Below are positions 1 through 63,168 of a DNA stretch of 64,000 nucleotides, one piece after another. The notes beneath the pieces were generated by a model, which had not been told where the DNA came from, made no database searches, and saw only the letters and a program-made list of their open reading frames with translations. Source of the stretch: Streptomyces luteolus (GTDB taxonomy: Bacteria; Actinomycetota; Actinomycetes; Streptomycetales; Streptomycetaceae); the NCBI RefSeq assembly GCF_029968015.1, contig NZ_JASCIS010000002.1, forward strand, positions 1 to 64,000. The letters run 5' to 3'. Every line of letters starts with the position of its first letter. The stretch's first letter is position 1. Made by a program: the position numbers and the translations under genes.

Positions 1-99
1 CGCGGGCTCCACGACCGCCCGCACCCCCGCCGCATACATCGCTTCGTAGTCGTCGGTGGTCCGGGAGGTCATGTGGATGTGCGGGTCGAAGATGCGCAT
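1..99 (-). CDS. TatD-family metal-dependent hydrolase (EboB-like), N-terminal fragment
   Basis: Only the first 33 codons are in the window; the gene runs off the left edge. The visible start is MRIFDPHIHMTS, with the His-x-His pair that opens TatD and amidohydrolase-type metal sites. The ATG at 99-97 shares one base with the TGA of the upstream EboA gene (TGATG), so translation is probably coupled. In ebo clusters a TatD-like hydrolase (EboB) is a constant member, which agrees with the neighbours here. The active site beyond the first motif cannot be checked. Confidence 0.75.
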   Translation of the reverse strand, partial: MRIFDPHIHMTSRTTDDYEAMYAAGVRAVVEPA

Positions 100-950
100 C
101 AGGACTCCTTGCGGGACACGCGGGGTGCGCGGGACATGCCGTCGTCGGACCCGACGGGCGCGGGCTCGGTCGTCGCTGGGGACGCGGTCGACGGGGCGGG
201 CTCTGCGGACGCGGACGACGGGGCGGTCTCTACGGACGCGGACGGCACGGCGGGATCCCTGCCCGCACCCCGGCCCACACCGACGCCCTCGCCCTCGCTC
301 TCGCTCCTGCCCTCCCCCTCGACCGGCGGCTGGGTGAGGCCGAGGACGCGGTGGAGATCGTCAGGGACGGGGCGGTCGGCGGCGGAGCGTTCGGCGGCGT
401 AGTCGCCGAGCATGCGGGCGAGTTCGACGTCGCCTCGGGCTCGGACGTGCAGGCGGGCGACAGGTGCGACCGGTACGCCGATGAACAGGCACTTGAGGAT
501 CGCGTGCCGCCAGGCGTGTGGGTCGAGGTGTTCCCCGGCGTACGGGCCGACTGCGGCGGCGACCAGACGGGGGTCGTTGGTCCGCAGCGCGTCCTCGGTC
601 AGTGGCAGGGCCTGCGGGCCTTCGATGAGATGCGGCAACGAGAGGAGGACGGCGCGGCGTTCGTCGGCGGTGCCCTGCTGGTAGAGGCGGGTCACGGTGG
701 CCAGGTCGGCCTGGGCGGCCTGGAGGAGCAGGAGTCGGGCGGCGTCGGCGTGGGCGGCACCGCAGCGGCGGCCTACCTCGGCAAACCTCAACTCCCATAG
801 CGGTGGGGGCTCTTGGGGGGTGAAGGGGGTATCGGACGGCTTGCCGGTGGAGGACTTGGCGTGGGCCGTCGCCTGCTCCAGCGCCCTGTCGAGCCAGGCG
901 CGGGCCGGGTCGTCGAGGGCGGCACGGAGTGCGGAGGCTGTGTCGGTCAC
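99..950 (-). CDS. eboA: EboA-domain protein
   Basis: The protein is 283 residues and starts with GTG inside a GTGA overlap with the upstream TIM-barrel gene. The helical core (about residues 1-210) has the EboA-like segments LWELRFAEVGRRCG, LPHLIEGPQALPLTEDALR and AILKCLFIGVPV. It contains no recognisable catalytic motif. The last 70 residues are a low-complexity tail rich in Ser, Ala, Pro and Glu, unlike the compact core. The ebo genes are known in Nostoc to be needed to move a scytonemin precursor to the periplasm; the biochemical role of EboA itself is unknown. Assignment rests on recalled family resemblance plus gene context. Confidence 0.8.
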   Translation of the reverse strand: MTDTASALRAALDDPARAWLDRALEQATAHAKSSTGKPSDTPFTPQEPPPLWELRFAEVGRRCGAAHADAARLLLLQAAQADLATVTRLYQQGTADERRAVLLSLPHLIEGPQALPLTEDALRTNDPRLVAAAVGPYAGEHLDPHAWRHAILKCLFIGVPVAPVARLHVRARGDVELARMLGDYAAERSAADRPVPDDLHRVLGLTQPPVEGEGRSESEGEGVGVGRGAGRDPAVPSASVETAPSSASAEPAPSTASPATTEPAPVGSDDGMSRAPRVSRKES

Positions 951-1900
951 TGGGGGCCTCCCTGTCCCGGGACGAAGGTGAGAGGCGAGGCGGTGTTCGT
1001 GGCGCTGGTCGGGAGCGAGGGTGTGGTCGCAGGCGTGGTCGTGGCCCGGGCTACGGGTTGCGCGGCTGCGGCCCGGCGCAGGAAGTGGAGGGATTCTTCG
1101 GCGAGTTGCGGGCCGGCGTGGGAGTGGCGGGGCAGTTCCACGACGGTCAGGCCTTGGTAGCCGGTGGCAGCCAGGGCGTCGAGGACGGGCGGGAAGTCGA
1201 TCTCGCCGGTACCGAAGGGGAGGTGTTCATGGACGCCGCGGCGCATGTCCTCGATCTGGACGTGCCGTAGCCACGGACCGGCTGCGGTGACGCAGGCGGC
1301 GGGAGGCTCGGGCTCGAGGCACTGGCAGTGGCCGATGTCGAGGGTGAGGCCGAGCGCGGCCGGGTCGCCGAGGTCGCGGCGCAGACGGTGGAAGTCGGCC
1401 AGGCGGGCGAGCAGATGGCCCGGTTCGGGTTCGACCGCCAGCGGAACTCCGGCCTCGGTGGCGGCGGTGACGACCGGTTCCATGGTCTCGGCCAGCCGCT
1501 TCCAGCCGGTCTCGGTGTCCGTGCCCGGTGGCAGGGTGCCGCTGAAGCAGTGCACGGCATGGGCGCCCAGGTCGGCGGCGACCTGGATGGCGCGCTGGAG
1601 GAGCTGCACGCGGGCAGCGCGGCCGTCCGGGTCGGGGTCGAGCAGGGAGGGGCCGTGCTTGCGGCGGGCGTCGAGTACGTAGCGAGCGCCCGTCTCGATG
1701 GTCACCGTGAGGCCGAGCTGGTCGAGGCGGCGCCCGACATGGCGGGTGCGGTCGGCGAGGTCCGGCGCCAGGGGGTCCAGGTGCATGTGGTCGAGGGTCA
1801 GGCCGAGGCCGTCGTAGCCGAGGTCGGAGAGGAGGGCGAGGGCGTCGTCGAGACGGAGGTCGGTGAGGCCGTTGGTGCCGTAGCCGAAGCGGAGGGTCAT
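947..1900 (-). CDS. eboE: EboE-like TIM-barrel protein (xylose isomerase/sugar-phosphate epimerase fold)
   Basis: I place the start at the ATG 1900-1898, giving 317 residues beginning MTLRFGYGTNGL. That ATG forms an ATGA overlap with the stop of the upstream repeat ORF, and the in-frame sequence further upstream is only 14-residue repeats. The barrel carries the metal-site pattern of AP-endonuclease-2-like enzymes: Glu in AVEPEPGHLL, Asp-His in LDIGHCQC, His in HVQIEDM and Glu in VVELPRHSH. Members of this family isomerise or epimerise sugar phosphates, but EboE proteins have no assigned reaction. It lies between the repeat ORF and EboA in a fully overlapping operon. Confidence 0.82.
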   Translation of the reverse strand: MTLRFGYGTNGLTDLRLDDALALLSDLGYDGLGLTLDHMHLDPLAPDLADRTRHVGRRLDQLGLTVTIETGARYVLDARRKHGPSLLDPDPDGRAARVQLLQRAIQVAADLGAHAVHCFSGTLPPGTDTETGWKRLAETMEPVVTAATEAGVPLAVEPEPGHLLARLADFHRLRRDLGDPAALGLTLDIGHCQCLEPEPPAACVTAAGPWLRHVQIEDMRRGVHEHLPFGTGEIDFPPVLDALAATGYQGLTVVELPRHSHAGPQLAEESLHFLRRAAAAQPVARATTTPATTPSLPTSATNTASPLTFVPGQGGPQ

Positions 1901-2304
1901 GAGGGCACCGTCCTGCTGCCGGAGGGGAAGGGGGTGAAGCCGTTGCCGCACGCGCGCGGGCCGGGCTGGCGGGAGGTGAACTCGTGGACGCACGCGCGGA
2001 GGCCGGACGGGTAGACGGCCAAGCCCTCGACGCACGCGCGCGAGCCGGACGGGAAGGAAGCCGAGCCCTCGACGCACGCGCGCGAGCCGGACGGGAAGAC
2101 GGCCAAGCCCTCGACCCACGCGCGCGAGCCCGAAGGGAAGGAGGCCAAGCCGTCGACGCACGCGCGCGAACCGGACGGGCGGGAGGTGAACCCGTCGACC
2201 CACGCGCGCGAACCGGACGGGCGGGAGGTGAACCCGTCGACGCACGCGCGCGAACCGGATGGGAGGTGAGGCTCCTCGGATGAGGGGAACGGTCGGCGGT
2301 TCAT
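1897..2304 (-). CDS. 14-residue tandem-repeat protein, translationally coupled at both ends; function unknown
   Basis: This 135-residue reading frame starts MNRRPFPSSEEPH and then consists of about eight 14-residue repeats of the type PSGSRACVDGFTSR or PSGSRAWVEGLAVF, each with a Cys or Trp at the seventh position. Its ATG (2304-2302) overlaps the TGA of the UbiA gene as ATGA, and its TGA (1899-1897) overlaps the ATG of the EboE-like gene as ATGA. That double coupling argues for a translated gene. The underlying 42-bp DNA array is a multiple of three and therefore open in several frames, so reading-frame length alone proves nothing. I recognise no homologue. It could instead be a repeat insertion that merely preserves coupling. 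Confidence 0.45.
   Translation of the reverse strand: MNRRPFPSSEEPHLPSGSRACVDGFTSRPSGSRAWVDGFTSRPSGSRACVDGLASFPSGSRAWVEGLAVFPSGSRACVEGSASFPSGSRACVEGLAVYPSGLRACVHEFTSRQPGPRACGNGFTPFPSGSRTVPS
1920..2265. repeat. 42-bp tandem repeat array
   Basis: About eight imperfect copies of a 42-bp unit lie head to tail. Each contains the core ACGCGCGCGAGCCGGACGGG followed by a variable spacer ending near CCGTCGACGC. Adjacent cores are 42 bp apart, for example CGAGCCGG at 2041 and again at 2083. Neighbouring units differ at a few positions, so the array is diverged rather than freshly amplified. It sits between the UbiA and EboE-like genes. Confidence 0.9.
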
Positions 2305-3758
2305 GTGGCGCTCACCCGCTTGCCCAGGCGGCGGGCGAGGGGGGCGAGGGCTGCTGTGACGAGGGCCGTACCGAGGGAACCGGAGCGGGCCGAGAGAGCG
2401 GACTGGAGGGGAATCATGGCGCGGATGCCGCCGCCCACGGCACGTTGGGTGAGTTGCGGGGAGGGGTTGAGGGTGGCGTGCCACAGAGGGCGGGCGGCAG
2501 TGGCGACATACGCGGCCCCGAGGAGGTGGTGCGGGGCGAGGCGGACAGTGGCCGGGCCGGGCAGACGTATCGCGGCGGGCCCGGGGAGCCGGACGGCGTT
2601 GGGCCCGCCGGGTGATGCAACCACCCGCCCCAGCAGAGTGGTTGCGGCCAGGGCGGCGAGGGGGGTCAGGGCTGAGCCGCCCTGCGCCTCGCGGCGGGAG
2701 ACGGTCGTGACCGCCAGGGTGTGGGCGGCGAGCACGGCCGAGGAGGGCAACGCGCGACGCACCGCGTCCGCCGTGACGCCCACACGCGTGCCCGCACCCA
2801 CGACTCCAGCACCGGCCCTGGCCCCGGCACCCGCCCCCGCACCGGCCCTGGCCCCCGCCCCTGCCCCCGCCTCGGCCCCGCCCACCGAAGCGACGGCCCC
2901 CGAAGCCACAGCCCCCAGCAGGAGGTCCAGGCCCCGGGCCGTGGCCATGGCTGCCGGGCCCGCGGCGGTGTGCTTCAGCTTCAGGTCGTACGCCCAGACC
3001 GAGCCCGCGAGGAGGCTCGCCACGGTCAGGGCGGGGCGGCCGGCGCGGGCGGCGAGCCCGAGGCCCGCAGCGGTGAGGACACCGGCGGCGGCGAGGGCGG
3101 CGCCGGATGGGATCCGGCCGGAGGGCAGGGGCCGGTGGGGGCGTTCGACGGCGTCCTCGTCGTGGTCCGCCCAGTCGTTGAGGGCCATGCCGGCCTCGTA
3201 CAGGCAGAGGGAGGAGCCGATGGCGGCAAGGGTGTGGGCGTTGGGGCGGACGCCGATGGCGGCGGCACCGGCCAGGGCGTCGCCGGGGACGGTGAACAGG
3301 GCGGAGATGCGCAGGAGTTCGGCCCAGTCACGCGCACGGCCGAGGCGTGGTCTCCGTGCGACGGACGGCGAACCTCCGTCCCGGGACCGCCCGTTCGCGA
3401 CCGAAGCCCCGTTCGCAGCTGGAGCCCCGTTCGCCGCCCCCGGAGCCCCATCAGGCCCGGAAGCCGTGCCCGGCCCGGGCGCCCCGTCGACACCCCGACC
3501 GTCGGAAGGAGAACTCACCCCCGGCGCGTACCCACCAGAAGCACCCGACGCACCCGACGCGCCGGACACGCCGTACACCCCAGCCGCACCGGACGCACCA
3601 GAACGCTCCCCGTCGCCGTTCAGGGACCGCCCGGACCGGCCCACCGCGCCGAGCCCACCCGAACCAGAACCCGAACCGAAGCCCGAATCCAAACCCGAGC
3701 CCGAACCCGAGCTGGTCCCCCACCCATCGACCCCACCCTTGCGTCCGCGCCACCTCAC
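2301..3758 (-). CDS. eboC: UbiA-family prenyltransferase (EboC-like) with long low-complexity N-terminus
   Basis: The gene starts with GTG in a GTGA overlap with the inositol-phosphate synthase gene and gives 485 residues, compared with about 300 for most UbiA enzymes. The first 135 residues are Gly, Ser and Ala-rich, with runs such as SGSGSGGLG and GASGASGASG. The membrane domain follows and carries the prenyl-diphosphate-binding motif ALNDWADHDEDAVERPHRPL, the usual NDxxD site of the family. A further Ala-Gly-Arg run near residues 295-320 (GAGAGARAGAGAG) interrupts a loop. UbiA enzymes transfer an isoprenoid chain to a small acceptor in the membrane; the acceptor here is unknown. The stop overlaps the ATG of the repeat ORF. 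Confidence 0.85.
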   Translation of the reverse strand: MRWRGRKGGVDGWGTSSGSGSGLDSGFGSGSGSGGLGAVGRSGRSLNGDGERSGASGAAGVYGVSGASGASGASGGYAPGVSSPSDGRGVDGAPGPGTASGPDGAPGAANGAPAANGASVANGRSRDGGSPSVARRPRLGRARDWAELLRISALFTVPGDALAGAAAIGVRPNAHTLAAIGSSLCLYEAGMALNDWADHDEDAVERPHRPLPSGRIPSGAALAAAGVLTAAGLGLAARAGRPALTVASLLAGSVWAYDLKLKHTAAGPAAMATARGLDLLLGAVASGAVASVGGAEAGAGAGARAGAGAGAGARAGAGVVGAGTRVGVTADAVRRALPSSAVLAAHTLAVTTVSRREAQGGSALTPLAALAATTLLGRVVASPGGPNAVRLPGPAAIRLPGPATVRLAPHHLLGAAYVATAARPLWHATLNPSPQLTQRAVGGGIRAMIPLQSALSARSGSLGTALVTAALAPLARRLGKRVSAT

Positions 3759-4882
3759 TGCGCCTCCCCCAGTCGCTCCGCGAACGCCAGCAGGTCGGCG
3801 TACTGCTCGCCGAGGGCGGAGGTGTGGCCGTCGGGGTCCTTGAAGTAGAAGCCCAACTCGGGTCGGGGGCCCGTGAGTCCGACGTCGGCGGAGCGGGCGA
3901 GGAGGCGGGCCAGGTCGAGGACGAGGGGGGCGGCGAGGGCGGAGTCGCAGCCCTGCCAGATGGTCTGCAGGACCATGCGGGAGCCGAGGAAGCCGTCGAA
4001 GGCGATGTGGTCCCAGGCGGTCTTCCAGTCGCCGAGGGACGGTACGTCGTCGATGTGCACCTCACCCTCGGGGGCGGTGCCGAGGACGTCGGCGAGGACG
4101 CGTTCCTTGCCCGCGTTCTTGGCGGCGGCCGCGGCCGGGTCGGCGAGGGCGGCGCCGTCGCCGCCGCCGAGGAGGTTCGTGCCGGACCAGGCGCGGACGT
4201 CGAGGGCGCGCTGCAGGAACATCGGCGCGAGCACGGCGCGCAGCAGGGTCTGGCCGGTCTTGCCGTCGCGCCCGGCGTAGGGAACGCCCGATGAAGCGGC
4301 CGAGGCGCCGAGTGCGGGGTGGTGCAGTCCGGTGGAGGGGGTGAAGTTGATGTAGGGGCAGTCGGCGCGGAGGGCGGCCGCCGCGTACAGGGAGCTGGCC
4401 GGGAGGCGCGGGTCGCCGTCGGCCGGGGCGGGTTCGGTGGAGGCGACGTTGACCACGACTGTCCGGGCGAGGCCGCGGCGGCGGGTGAAGTCGCTGATGT
4501 CGCCGGCGAACGCGGCGATCAGCTCCTCGTCCGACCGCGCATCGCCGCTCACCGGGCCGCCCGGCCTGATCTCGGCGTCGGCGGCGGCGAGTTCGGCGCG
4601 TACCGCCGAGGGGAGTCCGTGCGGCAGGACGCCCCCGGCCGCGAGGTGCTCGGCGCGTTTGGGCAGCGGGCACTCCATGGTGTCGTGGCCGCCGAAGACA
4701 AGGGAGGCGAGGGGTGGCAGGCCGGACTCGGCGAAGGGAGGTGTTTCGGTCACCATGCCGGTCGCCGGGTGGAGTCCGGCGGCCACCGCCGCACTTCCCG
4801 CGACCGCCGTGGTGGCGACCGAGCCGCGGGCGCCGATCAACCAGACGCCGTAGGAGGGGACAGGAGTGGACGAAGGGGTCAC
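3755..4882 (-). CDS. Inositol-3-phosphate (myo-inositol-1-phosphate) synthase family protein
   Basis: The start chosen is the GTG at 4882-4880, preceded by AAGGAGG with 7-nt spacing, giving 375 residues beginning VTPSSTPVPSYGVW. An upstream in-frame extension reads only short Pro-rich repeats and is rejected. The NAD-binding loop is LIGARGSVATTAV (about residues 16-28). Conserved synthase segments include NVASTEPAP, YINFTPSTG, GRDGKTGQT, SGTNLLGGGDG and WDHIAFDGFLG. The enzyme class converts glucose 6-phosphate to inositol phosphate through an NAD-dependent aldol cyclisation. In many ebo clusters a sugar-phosphate cyclase (EboD, related to 3-dehydroquinate synthase) holds this place, so a different cyclase may fill the same role here. 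It appears to be the first gene of the ebo-like operon. Confidence 0.88.
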   Translation of the reverse strand: MTPSSTPVPSYGVWLIGARGSVATTAVAGSAAVAAGLHPATGMVTETPPFAESGLPPLASLVFGGHDTMECPLPKRAEHLAAGGVLPHGLPSAVRAELAAADAEIRPGGPVSGDARSDEELIAAFAGDISDFTRRRGLARTVVVNVASTEPAPADGDPRLPASSLYAAAALRADCPYINFTPSTGLHHPALGASAASSGVPYAGRDGKTGQTLLRAVLAPMFLQRALDVRAWSGTNLLGGGDGAALADPAAAAAKNAGKERVLADVLGTAPEGEVHIDDVPSLGDWKTAWDHIAFDGFLGSRMVLQTIWQGCDSALAAPLVLDLARLLARSADVGLTGPRPELGFYFKDPDGHTSALGEQYADLLAFAERLGEAQ

Positions 4883-6455: not shown

Positions 6456-8978
6456 TCAGCCGGTGGTGAACTTGAAGTCGTCGACCTCGTAGAGCGCTCC
6501 GGTGCCCTCGCCCTTGAAGACCAGGTAGAGCGTGGTGGTCTCGGCGGGTGCGCCGCTCAGGTCGGCGCTCACGTCGACGTAGGTCTCCGCGCCGCCGGTC
6601 GGGTCGACCTTGGCGGTGCCGAGGAGCTTGCCGTCGGCGGCTCCGGCGCGGACTTCGAGGGTGCCGCCGGCTCCGGCGGAGGCGACGCGGGCGGTGACCT
6701 TGGTGGCGTTGCCGAGGACGTACGGCTTGAAGGAGATCCAGTCGCCGTTGTTGATCTCGCCGACGGCCTTGCCGCCGTGGGCGGCGCCGCGGCTCACCAC
6801 GGACACGCCCTGGTTGTCGTCGAAGTGCTCGGCCTGGCGGTGCTTGGGCTGGACGACGTTCTGGTCGTGGGTGGTGAGGGCGGGCTGACCGTTGGCGCCC
6901 TTGTCGGTGTACTCGGCGTCGAAGACTCCGAAGATGTTGGCGTTGGGGTCGTGCTCGCCGTCGGCGGAGGTCTGGATGGTGCCCTCGCAGCCGTTGGCGG
7001 AGGTCACCGGGTGGCCGTGGCTGTCGTGGCCGAGGATGTGCGTGACCTTGACCTTGGAGCAGTCGACGGTGCCGTCCTCCGGGTCGGTGACGGTGACCTT
7101 GAAGGGCACCTTGTCGCCGAAGGTGAACAGCTGGCCGTCGGCGGGCAGTTCGAGCTTCACGGTCGGTGCGGTGTTGCCGACGGTGATGTGGGCGCTGGCC
7201 GAGCCGGTGCGGCCGGTCTTGTCGGTGGCGGTGACGGTGGCGGCGTAGACGCCGTTCTTCTCGAAGGTGTGCGTGGGGTTCTGCTCGGTGGAGGTGGCTC
7301 CGTCGCCGAAGTCCCACTTGTACGTGACCTTGTCGCCGTCGGCGTCGGTGGCCTTGGCGTCGAACTGCACCTTCAGCGGGGTCTGGCCGCTGGTGACGTC
7401 GGCGCCGGCCTCGACGACGGGCGAGTGGCCGTCGGTGGCGTTCTCGATGCGGTAGAGCGCGGAGTTCTCGTCGCCGTTGAAGTAGCCGGTGCCGTAGTCG
7501 AGGACGTAGAGGGCGCCGTCGGGGCCGAAGTCCATGTCCATGACCTGGGTGCCGGTCCAGGGGAAGTCGTTGATGGACTGCACGGCGCCCGCGTCGTCCT
7601 GGGCGATCCGCTTGATCCAGCGGCGGCCGAACTCACCGGCGAAGAAGTTGCCGTCGTAGGACTCGGGGAACTTCACCTGCGAGTCGGAGTTGGCGTCGTA
7701 GCGGTAGACGGGGCCGCCCATCGGGGACTCGGAGCCGGTGCCGAACTCGGGGACGGAGCCGCCGTCGTAGGGGATCCAGGCTTCCTGGGCGGGCGGCAGG
7801 TCGGTGAGGCCGGTGTTGTGCGGCGACTCGTTCTTCGGGGCGGCGCAGTCGAAGGCGGCGCCGGAGGTCTGGTCGGCGAAGTTGTAGTCGATGTAGGCGT
7901 CGTTCTTGCCGGTGCAGTACGGCCAGCCGAAGTTGCCGGGCTTGGTGACGCGGGCGAACTCGACCTGACCTGCCGGGCCGCGCTTGGGGTCGGCCTTGCC
8001 GGAGTCGGGGCCGTAGTCGCCGACGTAGACGGTGCCGGTGGGCTTGTCGACGCTCATGCGGAAGGGATTGCGGAAGCCCATCGCGTAGATCTCGGGGCGG
8101 GTCTTCTCGGTGCCCTCGGCGAAGAGGTTGCCGTCCGGGACGGTGTACGAACCGTCGTCCGCGACCTTGATGCGGAGGATCTTGCCGCGCAGGTCGTTGG
8201 TGTTGCCGGAGGTGCGCTGCGCGTCGTAGGCCGGGTTCCGGTTCGCGCGCTCGTCGATGGGGGTGAAGCCGTCGGAGGCGAAGGGGTTGGAGTCGTCGCC
8301 GGTCGACAGGTAGAGGTTGCCGTCCTTGTCGAAGTCGATGTCGCCGCCGACGTGGCAGCAGATGCCGCGGTTGGCGGGAACGTCGAGGACCTTCTTCTCG
8401 CTGGCCGCGTCGAGGGTGCCGTCCTCCTTGAGGACGAAGCGGGAGAGCCGGTTCACGCCGTCGAACTTCTTGAAGTCCTCGGCGGTGCCCTCATTGGGCG
8501 CGTCACCGGAGGGGGTCTCCATGGGCGGGGCGTAGTAGAGGTAAATGGCCCTGTTCTCAGCGAAGTTCGGGTCTATGCCGACGCCTTGGAGGCCCTCTTC
8601 GTCGTGCGAGTAGACGGGTATCTTCCCGGCGACCTTGGTGGTGCCGGTGGCGTCGGTGAGGCGGACGGTGCCGTCGCGGGAGGTGTGCAGGACCGAGCGG
8701 TCCGGGAGCACGTCGAGTGTCATCGGCTCGCCCATCTCGGGCTCGCCCTTGGCGAGGGTGACCTGCTGGAAGTCCTCGGCCTTGGGGCCCTTGGGGCCCT
8801 TGGGGCCCGTGGGGCCCGTGGGGTCCTTGCCCTTCTTCCCGGCCACGGGTTCGACGCCCGACGTGGGCGCGTCCGGTACGGCGGTGGCGGGGGCGGCGAG
8901 GGTCAGCGACGCGGTCGCCATCACGGCGCCGGTGAGCAGGGCGAGCGTCTTGCGAAGTCTGAGCCTGTCTCTGTGCAC
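6456..8978 (-). CDS. Secreted PQQ-type sugar dehydrogenase with PKD and CBM6-like domains
   Basis: The GTG start at 8978-8976 follows GGAGG with 6-nt spacing; the product is 840 residues. A signal peptide ends near APATAVP, followed by a short collagen-like stretch (GPTGPKGPKGPK). The six-bladed propeller (about 70-500) resembles soluble glucose/sorbosone dehydrogenases, with GLQGVGIDPNF, GICCHVGGDIDF, LRGKILRI and GFRNPFRM. The adjacent Cys-Cys is like the vicinal disulphide seen in PQQ enzymes. A PKD domain (KWDFGDGATS) and a C-terminal CBM6-like module (about 715-840) follow. The likely reaction is oxidation of an extracellular sugar. A conserved 24-bp site lies about 160 bp upstream and probably places it under the ROK regulator of this region. 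Confidence 0.88.
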   Translation of the reverse strand: MHRDRLRLRKTLALLTGAVMATASLTLAAPATAVPDAPTSGVEPVAGKKGKDPTGPTGPKGPKGPKAEDFQQVTLAKGEPEMGEPMTLDVLPDRSVLHTSRDGTVRLTDATGTTKVAGKIPVYSHDEEGLQGVGIDPNFAENRAIYLYYAPPMETPSGDAPNEGTAEDFKKFDGVNRLSRFVLKEDGTLDAASEKKVLDVPANRGICCHVGGDIDFDKDGNLYLSTGDDSNPFASDGFTPIDERANRNPAYDAQRTSGNTNDLRGKILRIKVADDGSYTVPDGNLFAEGTEKTRPEIYAMGFRNPFRMSVDKPTGTVYVGDYGPDSGKADPKRGPAGQVEFARVTKPGNFGWPYCTGKNDAYIDYNFADQTSGAAFDCAAPKNESPHNTGLTDLPPAQEAWIPYDGGSVPEFGTGSESPMGGPVYRYDANSDSQVKFPESYDGNFFAGEFGRRWIKRIAQDDAGAVQSINDFPWTGTQVMDMDFGPDGALYVLDYGTGYFNGDENSALYRIENATDGHSPVVEAGADVTSGQTPLKVQFDAKATDADGDKVTYKWDFGDGATSTEQNPTHTFEKNGVYAATVTATDKTGRTGSASAHITVGNTAPTVKLELPADGQLFTFGDKVPFKVTVTDPEDGTVDCSKVKVTHILGHDSHGHPVTSANGCEGTIQTSADGEHDPNANIFGVFDAEYTDKGANGQPALTTHDQNVVQPKHRQAEHFDDNQGVSVVSRGAAHGGKAVGEINNGDWISFKPYVLGNATKVTARVASAGAGGTLEVRAGAADGKLLGTAKVDPTGGAETYVDVSADLSGAPAETTTLYLVFKGEGTGALYEVDDFKFTTG

Positions 8979-9136
8979 GAATGTCCTCCGGAATGCGGCC
9001 GGTGGTACTTGGCGTGTGCGATACGTGCGGTGCGCCGGGGTGCGCCGTCACCCCGGAGGGGCTCGTTTCCCTACATCTCAGGGAAGGTAGCCACGTTTGT
9101 CCCCGATAGAAAGCCCTTGCACAGAACAGGAGTTGG

Positions 9137-9160
9137 ACTTTTCCCTGAGTCTGGACAAAG
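9137..9160 (-). promoter_or_regulatory. Putative ROK-regulator operator upstream of the PQQ dehydrogenase
   Basis: On the minus strand the site reads CTTTGTCCAG, ACTCAGG, GAAAAGT. It matches 20 of 24 positions with the element at 16751-16774 upstream of the ROK gene. Both have imperfect dyad symmetry (ACTTT and AAAGT ends). The 204-bp gap between the isomerase and dehydrogenase genes also holds a perfect 6-bp inverted repeat, TTCCCT at 9067-9072 and AGGGAA at 9080-9085. The site suggests a second ROK-controlled promoter for the secreted pair. ROK binding is inferred from position only. Confidence 0.6.
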
Positions 9161-9182
9161 TGCTCAAGTGTGGGGGAATGAT

Positions 9183-10187
<1,005 letters not shown>

Positions 10188-15246: not shown

Positions 15247-15294
15247 GGTTCAGAGCAGAGCAGGTTCAGGGCAGAGCAGGTTCAGGGCAGAGCA
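15247..15294. repeat. 16-bp tandem repeat, three copies
   Basis: Three adjacent 16-bp units of the form GGTTCAGGGCAGAGCA (first unit with AGAG instead of AGGG) lie at 15247-15262, 15263-15278 and 15279-15294. They are in the gap between the ROK gene stop and the ABC ATPase start, so they fall in the leader of the transporter transcript if it is read from the ROK promoter. Confidence 0.95.
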
Positions 15295-15327
15295 GGGCAA
15301 AGCGGGCGGTGCGGGACGCGCTGTGCT

Positions 15328-15430
15328 GTCGTACGGGCTATGCGGGTGCTGTCGTACGGGCTTGCTGCTGTGCGGTCGTATGGGCTTGCTGCTGTGCGGT
15401 CGTACGGGCTTGCTGCTGTGCGGTCGTACG
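15328..15430. repeat. 24-bp tandem repeat, three full copies plus partials
   Basis: Units of 24 bp containing GTCGTACGGGCTTGCTGCTG lie at 15351-15374, 15375-15398 and 15399-15422, with a degenerate 23-bp unit before and a truncated one after. The array ends just beyond the 3' end of the ROK gene. Together with the 16-bp array it occupies most of the ROK-ATPase gap. No gene is apparent in the gap. Confidence 0.95.
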
Positions 15431-61945: not shown

Positions 61946-63168
61946 TCGGACCGTTCCCCCGCCGAGCCGAGGACGCGCGAAGCCCCCACCGGGAGGTCCC
62001 ACAGGTCGTCGCGGTGGTGGCCCTTCTCGGTCCAGGCGCGGCGGACGCGGGTGAGGGGTTCGAGGACCGGCTCGGCGGAGAGCAGGAACGTCGCCCAGTG
62101 CATCGGGGCAAGCCGGGAAGCGCCGAGGTCGGTGATCGCGCGGACCGCCTCCTCCGGGTCGCAGTGGACGTCGCTGAGCCACCAGCGCGGGTCGTACGCG
62201 CCGATCGGCAGCAGCGCCAGGTCGATGCCGGGGTGGCGGCGGCCGATCTCCGTGAACCAGTGGCCGTAGCCCGTGTCACCGGCGAAGTACAGCTTGCGGC
62301 CGGCGGGATCGGTGAGGACCCAACCGCCCCACAGGGAACGGCAGGTGTCGGTCAGGGTGCGCTTGGACCAGTGGTGGGCGGGCACGAAGTCGAAGCGCAC
62401 CCCACCCAGTTCGGTCGCCTCCCACCAGTCGAGCTCGGTCACGCAGCGGAAGCGGCGGCGCCGGAACCAGCCGCCGAGCCCGGCCGGGACGAACAGCGGT
62501 GTCTCGCGCGGCAGCCGCTTCAGGGTGGGGGCGTCCAGGTGGTCGTAGTGGTTGTGGCTGATCACCACGGCGTCGACGCGGGGCAGCGCCGCCCAGGCCA
62601 CGCCCGCCGGGGTGATCCGGGCGGGGATGCCGAGGATGCGCCGTGACCACACGGGGTCGGTGAGCACGGTCAGGCCGCCGATACCGACGACCCAGCTGGC
62701 GTGCCCGACCCAGGTGACGGCGATGTCGGTGGCGGCGGGCCGGGGCAGCGGTCCCGGTTCGAAGGGCAGCAGGGGGATGTCGGCGAGCCCTTCCGCGTCG
62801 GGCCGGGTCGCACCCTCGCGCGCGAAACGGGCGAACGCCTGCACACCCGGCAGCGGAGCGGTCAGCCGGTCCGCGAAGCTCCGCGGCCAGCGGCGCCCCT
62901 CGCCGAGCGGCCGGGGGGACGGCGGCGGCGGGAGCGGCGGGAGCGGCGGGAGCGGCGGGAGCGGTCGTATCGGATGGTTCGAATGGGTCGGATGGATCGA
63001 ATGGATCGAATGGATCGAATGGATCGAATGGGTCGGATGGGTCGGATGGATCGGATGGATCGGCTCGACCGGCGGGGTCGCCTGGGCGGGTCGGCTCGGT
63101 CGGGGGTCTACGGGGACACCGGCATCGGTCGCGGAACGGGAGGACGTCGACTCCGACTGCTGCGTCAT
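61879..63168 (-). CDS. Metallo-beta-lactamase-fold hydrolase (NAPE-PLD-like) with a His-repeat N-terminus
   Basis: The 429-residue product has the motif VVISHNHYDHLDAPTLKR (His-x-His-x-Asp-His), VTWVGHASWVVGI at the first strand, FVPAHHWSKRT and LYFAGDTGYGHWF, matching NAPE-PLD-like and UlaG-like hydrolases. Residues 36-67 are a His-x-x repeat (HPIHPTHPTHSIHSIHSI) followed by an LPP repeat, both from 9-bp tandem DNA repeats. The His run could bind metal or be a neutral microsatellite product. The ATG overlaps the stop of the upstream gene (ATGA). Confidence 0.9.
   Translation of the reverse strand: MTQQSESTSSRSATDAGVPVDPRPSRPAQATPPVEPIHPIHPTHPTHSIHSIHSIHSIHPTHSNHPIRPLPPLPPLPPLPPPPSPRPLGEGRRWPRSFADRLTAPLPGVQAFARFAREGATRPDAEGLADIPLLPFEPGPLPRPAATDIAVTWVGHASWVVGIGGLTVLTDPVWSRRILGIPARITPAGVAWAALPRVDAVVISHNHYDHLDAPTLKRLPRETPLFVPAGLGGWFRRRRFRCVTELDWWEATELGGVRFDFVPAHHWSKRTLTDTCRSLWGGWVLTDPAGRKLYFAGDTGYGHWFTEIGRRHPGIDLALLPIGAYDPRWWLSDVHCDPEEAVRAITDLGASRLAPMHWATFLLSAEPVLEPLTRVRRAWTEKGHHRDDLWDLPVGASRVLGSAGERSEQAALTERAGRAESTEQAGRLS
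62971..63060. repeat. 9-bp tandem repeat, ten units, coding for His-x-x repeats
   Basis: Ten consecutive 9-bp units of the type CGGATGGAT or CGAATGGAT run from 62971 to 63060. On the minus strand they encode His followed by Ser/Pro and Ile/Thr. A second 9-bp array (GCGGGAGCG type) encoding LPP lies just downstream at about 62928-62966. Indels of whole units would preserve the frame. Confidence 0.95.

Follow-up and report, generated by a model that had tools for sequence, protein, structure and literature searches.

A repeat-built ORF bracketed by two ATGA overlaps as a candidate translational relay between UbiA and isomerase-like genes of Streptomyces luteolus

We analysed a 64,000-nucleotide stretch of Streptomyces luteolus DNA (contig NZ_JASCIS010000002.1, hereafter the window), in which a 42-bp tandem array lies between a UbiA-family prenyltransferase gene and a xylose-isomerase-like gene, inside an ORF that overlaps both neighbors by ATGA. 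We propose, with a probability of about 0.7, that this ORF is a translated relay, which would carry ribosomes across the array and keep the isomerase-like gene coupled to UbiA. The frame rules of relatives and the Shine-Dalgarno (SD)-like sites at both ends favor translation of the ORF, and its peptide is probably for the most part a dispensable by-product, free to vary in sequence. The features of the locus are as follows.

3755–4882, minus strand: myo-inositol-1-phosphate synthase-like gene (Ino1; Pfam PF07994 and PF01658; start codon not settled)
2301–3758, minus strand: UbiA-family prenyltransferase gene of the SCO3242 family (NF045897, 358 bits, cut-off 260)
2305–2324, minus strand: SD-like site in the UbiA tail, GGGTGAG (duplex of −10.7 kcal/mol with the 16S tail)
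2301–2304, minus strand: junction 1, ATGA, UbiA stop and array ORF start (from the sequence)
1897–2304, minus strand: array ORF, candidate relay, 135 codons (from the sequence; an ORF with the same ends occurs in locus L089)
1918–2272, minus strand: 42-bp tandem array of 8.4 copies inside the array ORF (TRF)
1901–1920, minus strand: SD-like site at the 3' end of the array ORF, AGGACGGTG (duplex of −10.2 kcal/mol with the 16S tail)
1897–1900, minus strand: junction 2, ATGA, array ORF stop and isomerase-like gene start (from the sequence)
947–1900, minus strand: xylose-isomerase-like TIM-barrel gene (PF01261, 2.5e-45)
99–950, minus strand: EboA-domain gene (NF035938, 157 bits, cut-off 50)

The ATG of the array ORF (2304–2302) overlaps the TGA of UbiA (2303–2301), and its TGA (1899–1897) overlaps the ATG of the isomerase-like gene (1900–1898). 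Both junctions are thus present on the minus strand, as the first-pass annotation had described, and the frame between them encodes 135 amino acids without an internal stop. The annotation's eight repeats of about 14 residues were recovered as eight full units plus a partial one when the product was split by motif. The proposed Ser-Arg-Ala-Cys/Trp core was complete in six of the eight units and shortened to RA[C/W] when all eight were considered. The unit number was read from one assembly in 113 contigs and is therefore provisional. In the forward direction, the 42-bp units are free of stop codons in all frames. Differences among them are mostly non-synonymous in every frame, and counts of synonymous and non-synonymous changes revealed no strong constraint in any frame.

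The Ino1-like gene is the first of the coupled genes and is joined to UbiA by a GTGA (3755–3758), in which its stop and the UbiA start overlap. The NF045897 match in the UbiA protein begins at residue 144 and is preceded by a low-complexity N-terminal extension. This extension, of about 140 residues (3300–3758, minus strand), is a side observation of its own, as relatives carry either an in-frame extension or a relay ORF at that place. Against the EboC equivalog model NF035940, the UbiA protein scored 111.5 bits (cut-off 250); it matched the SCO3242 family instead. The stop of the isomerase-like gene overlaps the start of the EboA-domain gene as GTGA (947–950); the EboA-domain protein scored 61.6 bits against the stricter EboA_family model, below its cut-off of 320. 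The window contig begins at window base 1, so the remainder of the operon is visible only in relatives. In L089, the operon continues past EboA with a weakly TatD-like gene (below cut-off), EboE (8417–9928; NF035939, 428 bits, cut-off 250), and a weakly hydrolase-like gene (below cut-off). The gene downstream of the array had been called EboE-like; its product matched PF01261 and no EboE model, and since EboE lies farther down the operon in L089, the TIM-barrel gene adjoining UbiA is a different gene. A xylose-isomerase-like domain fused to EboA is mentioned for other actinobacteria in an excerpt of PMC5133447.

In the proposed mechanism, ribosomes finishing UbiA would re-start at the overlapping ATG of the array ORF, translate the repeat, and use the second ATGA to terminate and then initiate the isomerase-like gene. 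Passages of PMC10666635 give the −4 nt overlap as the commonest distance and report that native gene pairs of H. volcanii and E. coli lose almost all coupling at gaps of about 20–38 nt. Because coupling is nearly lost over such gaps, an untranslated insert of 400 nt would sever the isomerase-like gene from UbiA. A frame open from ATGA to ATGA would restore the hand-over, which is why we read the ORF as a putative relay.

The first-pass annotation considered chance retention of both junctions around the array unlikely, which is overstated for one locus. None of the three forward frames is closed by a stop within the array, and after dinucleotide shuffling (2000 shuffles) the ORF frame was still open in a fraction of 0.62. 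Given the downstream gene's own ATGA and a frame that is often open, a single double-ATGA locus is unremarkable. Judged from sequence comparison, the weight of the case is in recurrence across loci and not in the window locus alone. Codon statistics were mixed: the window ORF frame had a GC3 of 0.93 and the best codon score among the forward frames, one antisense frame equaled this GC3, and the ORF frame of L089 scored worse than its isomerase frame, which we counted against the relay.

We surveyed the UbiA/isomerase junction in relatives. The isomerase-like gene was sought in 392 genomes of the genus, and 347 gave a match at E 1e-3, including many weaker paralogues. Further loci came from 61 relatives (37 already in the first set) and at least 80 GTDB loci, and 100 more stretches were picked from the genus-search matches listed, with about ten listed matches left out. 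The sample comprised 238 loci (L031 to L268); 18 without a UbiA tail were dropped, leaving 220 pairs with 204 distinct junctions. A redraw from the genus for closer kin returned the same genomes as the first draw and nothing nearer than 83% among the matches listed.

An ATG, GTG, or TTG lay over the UbiA stop in 203 of the 204 distinct junctions (ATG 172, GTG 30, TTG 1; the remaining one is CTG). The frame was open from this overlapping start into the isomerase-like gene at 192 junctions, either as a direct overlap or as a hypervariable N-terminal extension of 0–214 residues (median 11). This extension was at most one residue long in 50 of these and at least 40 residues long in 34, and was built of tandem repeats in several loci (e.g., L045, L047, L097, L127, and L129). 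Twelve junctions departed from the in-frame rule, and nine of them carry one ORF or several chained ORFs whose last stop lies in an RTGA that starts the isomerase-like gene in frame. These nine double-overlap loci are L031 (the window), L064, L076, L089, L132, L143, L167, L191, and L256.

The other three departures were individual, and all were counted against the relay. In L173, the stop is followed 7 nt on by an ATG in another phase. In L172 (genome G174), the interval does not share the frame of the isomerase-like gene, and no start codon in that frame offers a restart; this could be due to an indel in the assembly or to a coupling that is broken. L088 is a 49% paralogue with a CTG start. 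Among the 18 dropped loci, 16 had an in-frame RTGA ending another frame of at least 138 open codons, which suggests that the upstream gene has diverged or is another one, and not that a large gap intervenes. L239 had no such RTGA, and L079 lacks the gene start. When the nine relay loci were mapped on a rough FastTree tree (203 loci), eight changes were required, four of them forced by well-supported branches; shuffled labels on the same tree required 8.9 on average.

Duplex energies were calculated with what we take to be the letters of the 16S tail. The first junction had a median of −11.7 kcal/mol over the 204 loci. Random upstream places had a median of −2.4 kcal/mol, and at most 0.8% of them were as low as the two junctions of the window.

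Repeat periods followed the reading frame. A tandem array was found in 44 of 131 intervals of at least 20 nt, with a best period of 0 modulo 3 in 33, 2 in six, and 1 in five (binomial 1.9e-8 for 33 of 44 against one third). As most of these 44 arrays are in-frame extensions, the bias shows the general frame constraint on the interval. Arrays inside relay ORFs had periods of 42/126 (window), 27 (L089), 54 (L064), 15 (L111), and 24 (L144), all divisible by three, and units spanning stop-start sites measured 80 (L256) and 118 (L076), which are not. In a phase test over both junction types, 10 of 11 single-phase loci were 2 modulo 3 (one-sided 0.006); this test left out L076 (mixed), L172 (no restart), and L088 (CTG), and the window and L089 in it are kin. 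At such a repeat-prone junction, inserts seem to persist when they are in frame with the isomerase-like gene (an extension, common) or bring a stop-start overlap with them (a relay, rare). An array within a relay ORF could expand and turn over while its unit is a multiple of three.

The neighboring Ino1/UbiA junction was readable in 69 of 81 records (80 GTDB loci among the matches listed, and the window). A start overlapping the Ino1 stop was in frame with UbiA in 66 and CTGA was found in one. Both out-of-frame loci, L111 (43 codons) and L144 (116 codons), held repeat-bearing ORFs with RTGA at both ends. SD-like energies at this junction were weaker (−5.9 to −10.3). The isomerase/EboA junction (n = 78) gave 55 in-frame overlaps, one out-of-frame overlap, one TGATG-type, and 21 of neither scored type. 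The overlap rule is looser there (55/78), which we counted against the relay. In 0.8 Mb of two other chromosomes of the genus, where a crude GC rule served as the gene test, seven double-RTGA chains were found and none had a tandem array; repeat-bearing relays are therefore not everywhere.

The nearest isomerase proteins among the matches listed were those of L089 (88% identical to the window) and L090 (85%). L090 has no insert, and its UbiA gene overlaps the isomerase-like gene directly by ATGA. L089 has a 66-codon ORF with the same two ends as the 135-codon ORF of the window (MNLRP...FPSGSKAVPS in L089, MNRRP...FPSGSRTVPS in the window), around a different array with a 27-bp instead of a 42-bp period. 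This is the comparison of the interval in related loci for which the first-pass annotation had called.

The relay ORFs show traces of a possible origin. The small ORF of L064, L132, L167, and L191 and the first ORF of L076 end in a sequence that nearly repeats the UbiA tail (KVSxT-stop or similar; all by eye). Tandem duplication of the SD-stop-start segment would explain both overlaps in such ORFs. No UbiA-tail copy is evident in the window, L089, or L143, and none is clear at junction 2 of the window. L256 contains three tandem 80-bp units, each with an SD, a stop-start overlap, and a 27-codon ORF; this unit was found at one place only in its genome, G207 (best 40 of 79 candidates scored). 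One middle step of the L076 chain is a 7-nt gap, which was counted against the relay.

Four other explanations were weighed. The array could be an untranslated minisatellite; the isomerase-like gene would then use its own SD, and the double ATGA would arise incidentally from open frames in GC-rich DNA. The shuffles, the three open frames, and the SD-like site at the second junction all agree with this explanation, but the restart at an RTGA overlap in nine of the 12 departing loci, the array periods that follow the reading frame, and the two further double-RTGA cases at the Ino1/UbiA junction make it unlikely. The first-pass annotation preferred a functional repeat peptide as an additional component of the ebo-like pathway. 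The double overlap, the good codon usage of the window frame, the fixed spacing of Cys/Trp, and the ORF ends common to the window and L089 speak for it. We nevertheless have little confidence in this proposal and do not retain it. The peptide gave no match at E 1e-3 among 4097 candidates, in line with the annotation's remark that it recognized no homologue, and hit no Pfam or NCBIfam family; its single-sequence structure model was of low confidence (mean pLDDT 48). Among 392 genomes of the genus, the array was found solely in the window's own (two candidates scored per genome), where it occupies one place (best 40 of 110 candidates scored); 67 of the 391 others gave matches of at most 47.3 bits, which we took as chance. 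The genomes of L089, L144, and L111 gave nothing beyond short matches of 30–41 bases to the array, and the L089 match (40 bases, 93%) is the common 3' end of the ORF. Moreover, L090 lacks the array, the ORF of L089 carries another repeat and shares only its two ends with the window, and the interval is in frame with the isomerase-like gene at the 192 junctions described above.

The array might instead form an N-terminal extension of the isomerase-like protein, reached through an internal GTG or a frameshift. No stop interrupts the isomerase frame within the array, eight GTGs lie in this frame there, and it is the frame read in 192 of 204 junctions. These GTGs, however, have duplex energies of merely −1.7 to −3.1 and thus no SD-like sites, the ATG in the UbiA stop belongs to another frame, and L089 has no isomerase-frame start codon between the UbiA stop and the isomerase ATG; we regard this explanation as very improbable. 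We give almost no credence to an action of the array as DNA or RNA, through a regulatory RNA structure or an internal promoter. The repeats are GC-rich and MIRUs offer a precedent, as an internal promoter is reported for the senX3-regX3 MIRU region in a portion of PMC4213456, but the folding z-score was −0.42, Rfam gave no match with E up to 1, and a search for sigma-70-like sites found none in 1850–2400. No terminator was found in this interval either.

With the ORF read as a candidate relay, the nearest known system appears, by analogy, to be the mycobacterial MIRU, reportedly described by Supply et al. in 1997. MIRU units typically carry their own stop-start overlap, as does the L256 unit, whereas the 42-bp unit of the window has none. 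MIRUs are described as mobile and interspersed, in contrast to the window array and the L256 unit, each at one place among the candidates scored (40 of 110 and 40 of 79). In the parts of PMC12548453 that treat MIRUs, these are repeats that sit between genes of one direction and contain an ORF coupled at −4 nt spacing to the gene that follows. They are described as inserting at start codons, which brings about this coupling, and as limiting the cost of insertion. The window ORF likewise meets the following gene by a −4 nt overlap (ATGA, 1897–1900), at which coupling is putative. MIRU units of 77 and 53 bp, given for one locus in a portion of PMC4213456, are both 2 modulo 3, as is the 80-bp unit of L256. 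As the array is not dispersed as searched, its unit has no stop-start overlap, and the comparison is one of arrangement, we do not file it as a MIRU.

Three other arrangements share part of this design. The −4 nt overlap at both window ends and the SD-like sites resemble termination-reinitiation (TeRe) at ATGA overlaps, but unlike in a plain TeRe pair, the two genes, which in some relatives overlap each other directly, are separated here by a third ORF built of repeats, whose coupling is putative. The hypervariable N-terminal extension of the isomerase-like protein in other Streptomyces has the same place, the same start, and often repeats divisible by three; in contrast, the window frame ends before the isomerase-like gene, which is started anew at a second ATGA. 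Short upstream ORFs that deliver ribosomes, as presented in a part of PMC12548453, would similarly serve through being translated, whereas the window ORF is intercistronic, repeat-built, and fed by the stop of the upstream gene. For Streptomyces, no description of this arrangement was found in the literature titles and abstract openings searched, a coverage outside which most subscription journals lie.

One junction in about 200 Streptomyces-type loci thus offers a testable series of direct overlap, in-frame extension, single relay, and chained relays, which illustrates a way in which repeats could grow between coupled genes and be tolerated by the operon. It also cautions that such ORFs should not be annotated as pathway components. 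More speculatively, coupled stop-start junctions might be nurseries for ORFs that obey a frame rule, of which MIRUs would be the mobile case; we hold this generalization only tentatively. An SD-stop-start cassette would duplicate in tandem and yield relay ORFs that are translated as soon as they arise and burden the operon little. An insert of 0 modulo 3 would extend the next protein, and one of 2 modulo 3 with a new RTGA would form a relay. This is a suggested route for the birth of small ORFs that are already translated, and the frame rule could be applied to re-examine intercistronic repeats such as MIRUs.

Several further observations were made. A second UbiA/isomerase pair in the same genome (G000:C71:713-1588, L169) encodes an isomerase of 76% identity whose in-frame extension is short; this pair lacks an array. 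The EboA-domain protein has a low-complexity tail (99–330, minus strand) with a 27-bp repeat at 176–244, near its overlap with the following gene, which is cut off by the contig end. The EboE protein of Streptomyces sp. B-S-A8 (L089, 8417–9928) contains an internal PAEAV-type repeat. Elsewhere in the window, two adjoining arrays lie at 15247–15430 (16 bp × 3.1 and 24 bp × 4.7), and a 9-bp tandem array, ATCGGATGG, of 10.6 copies lies at 62969–63063.
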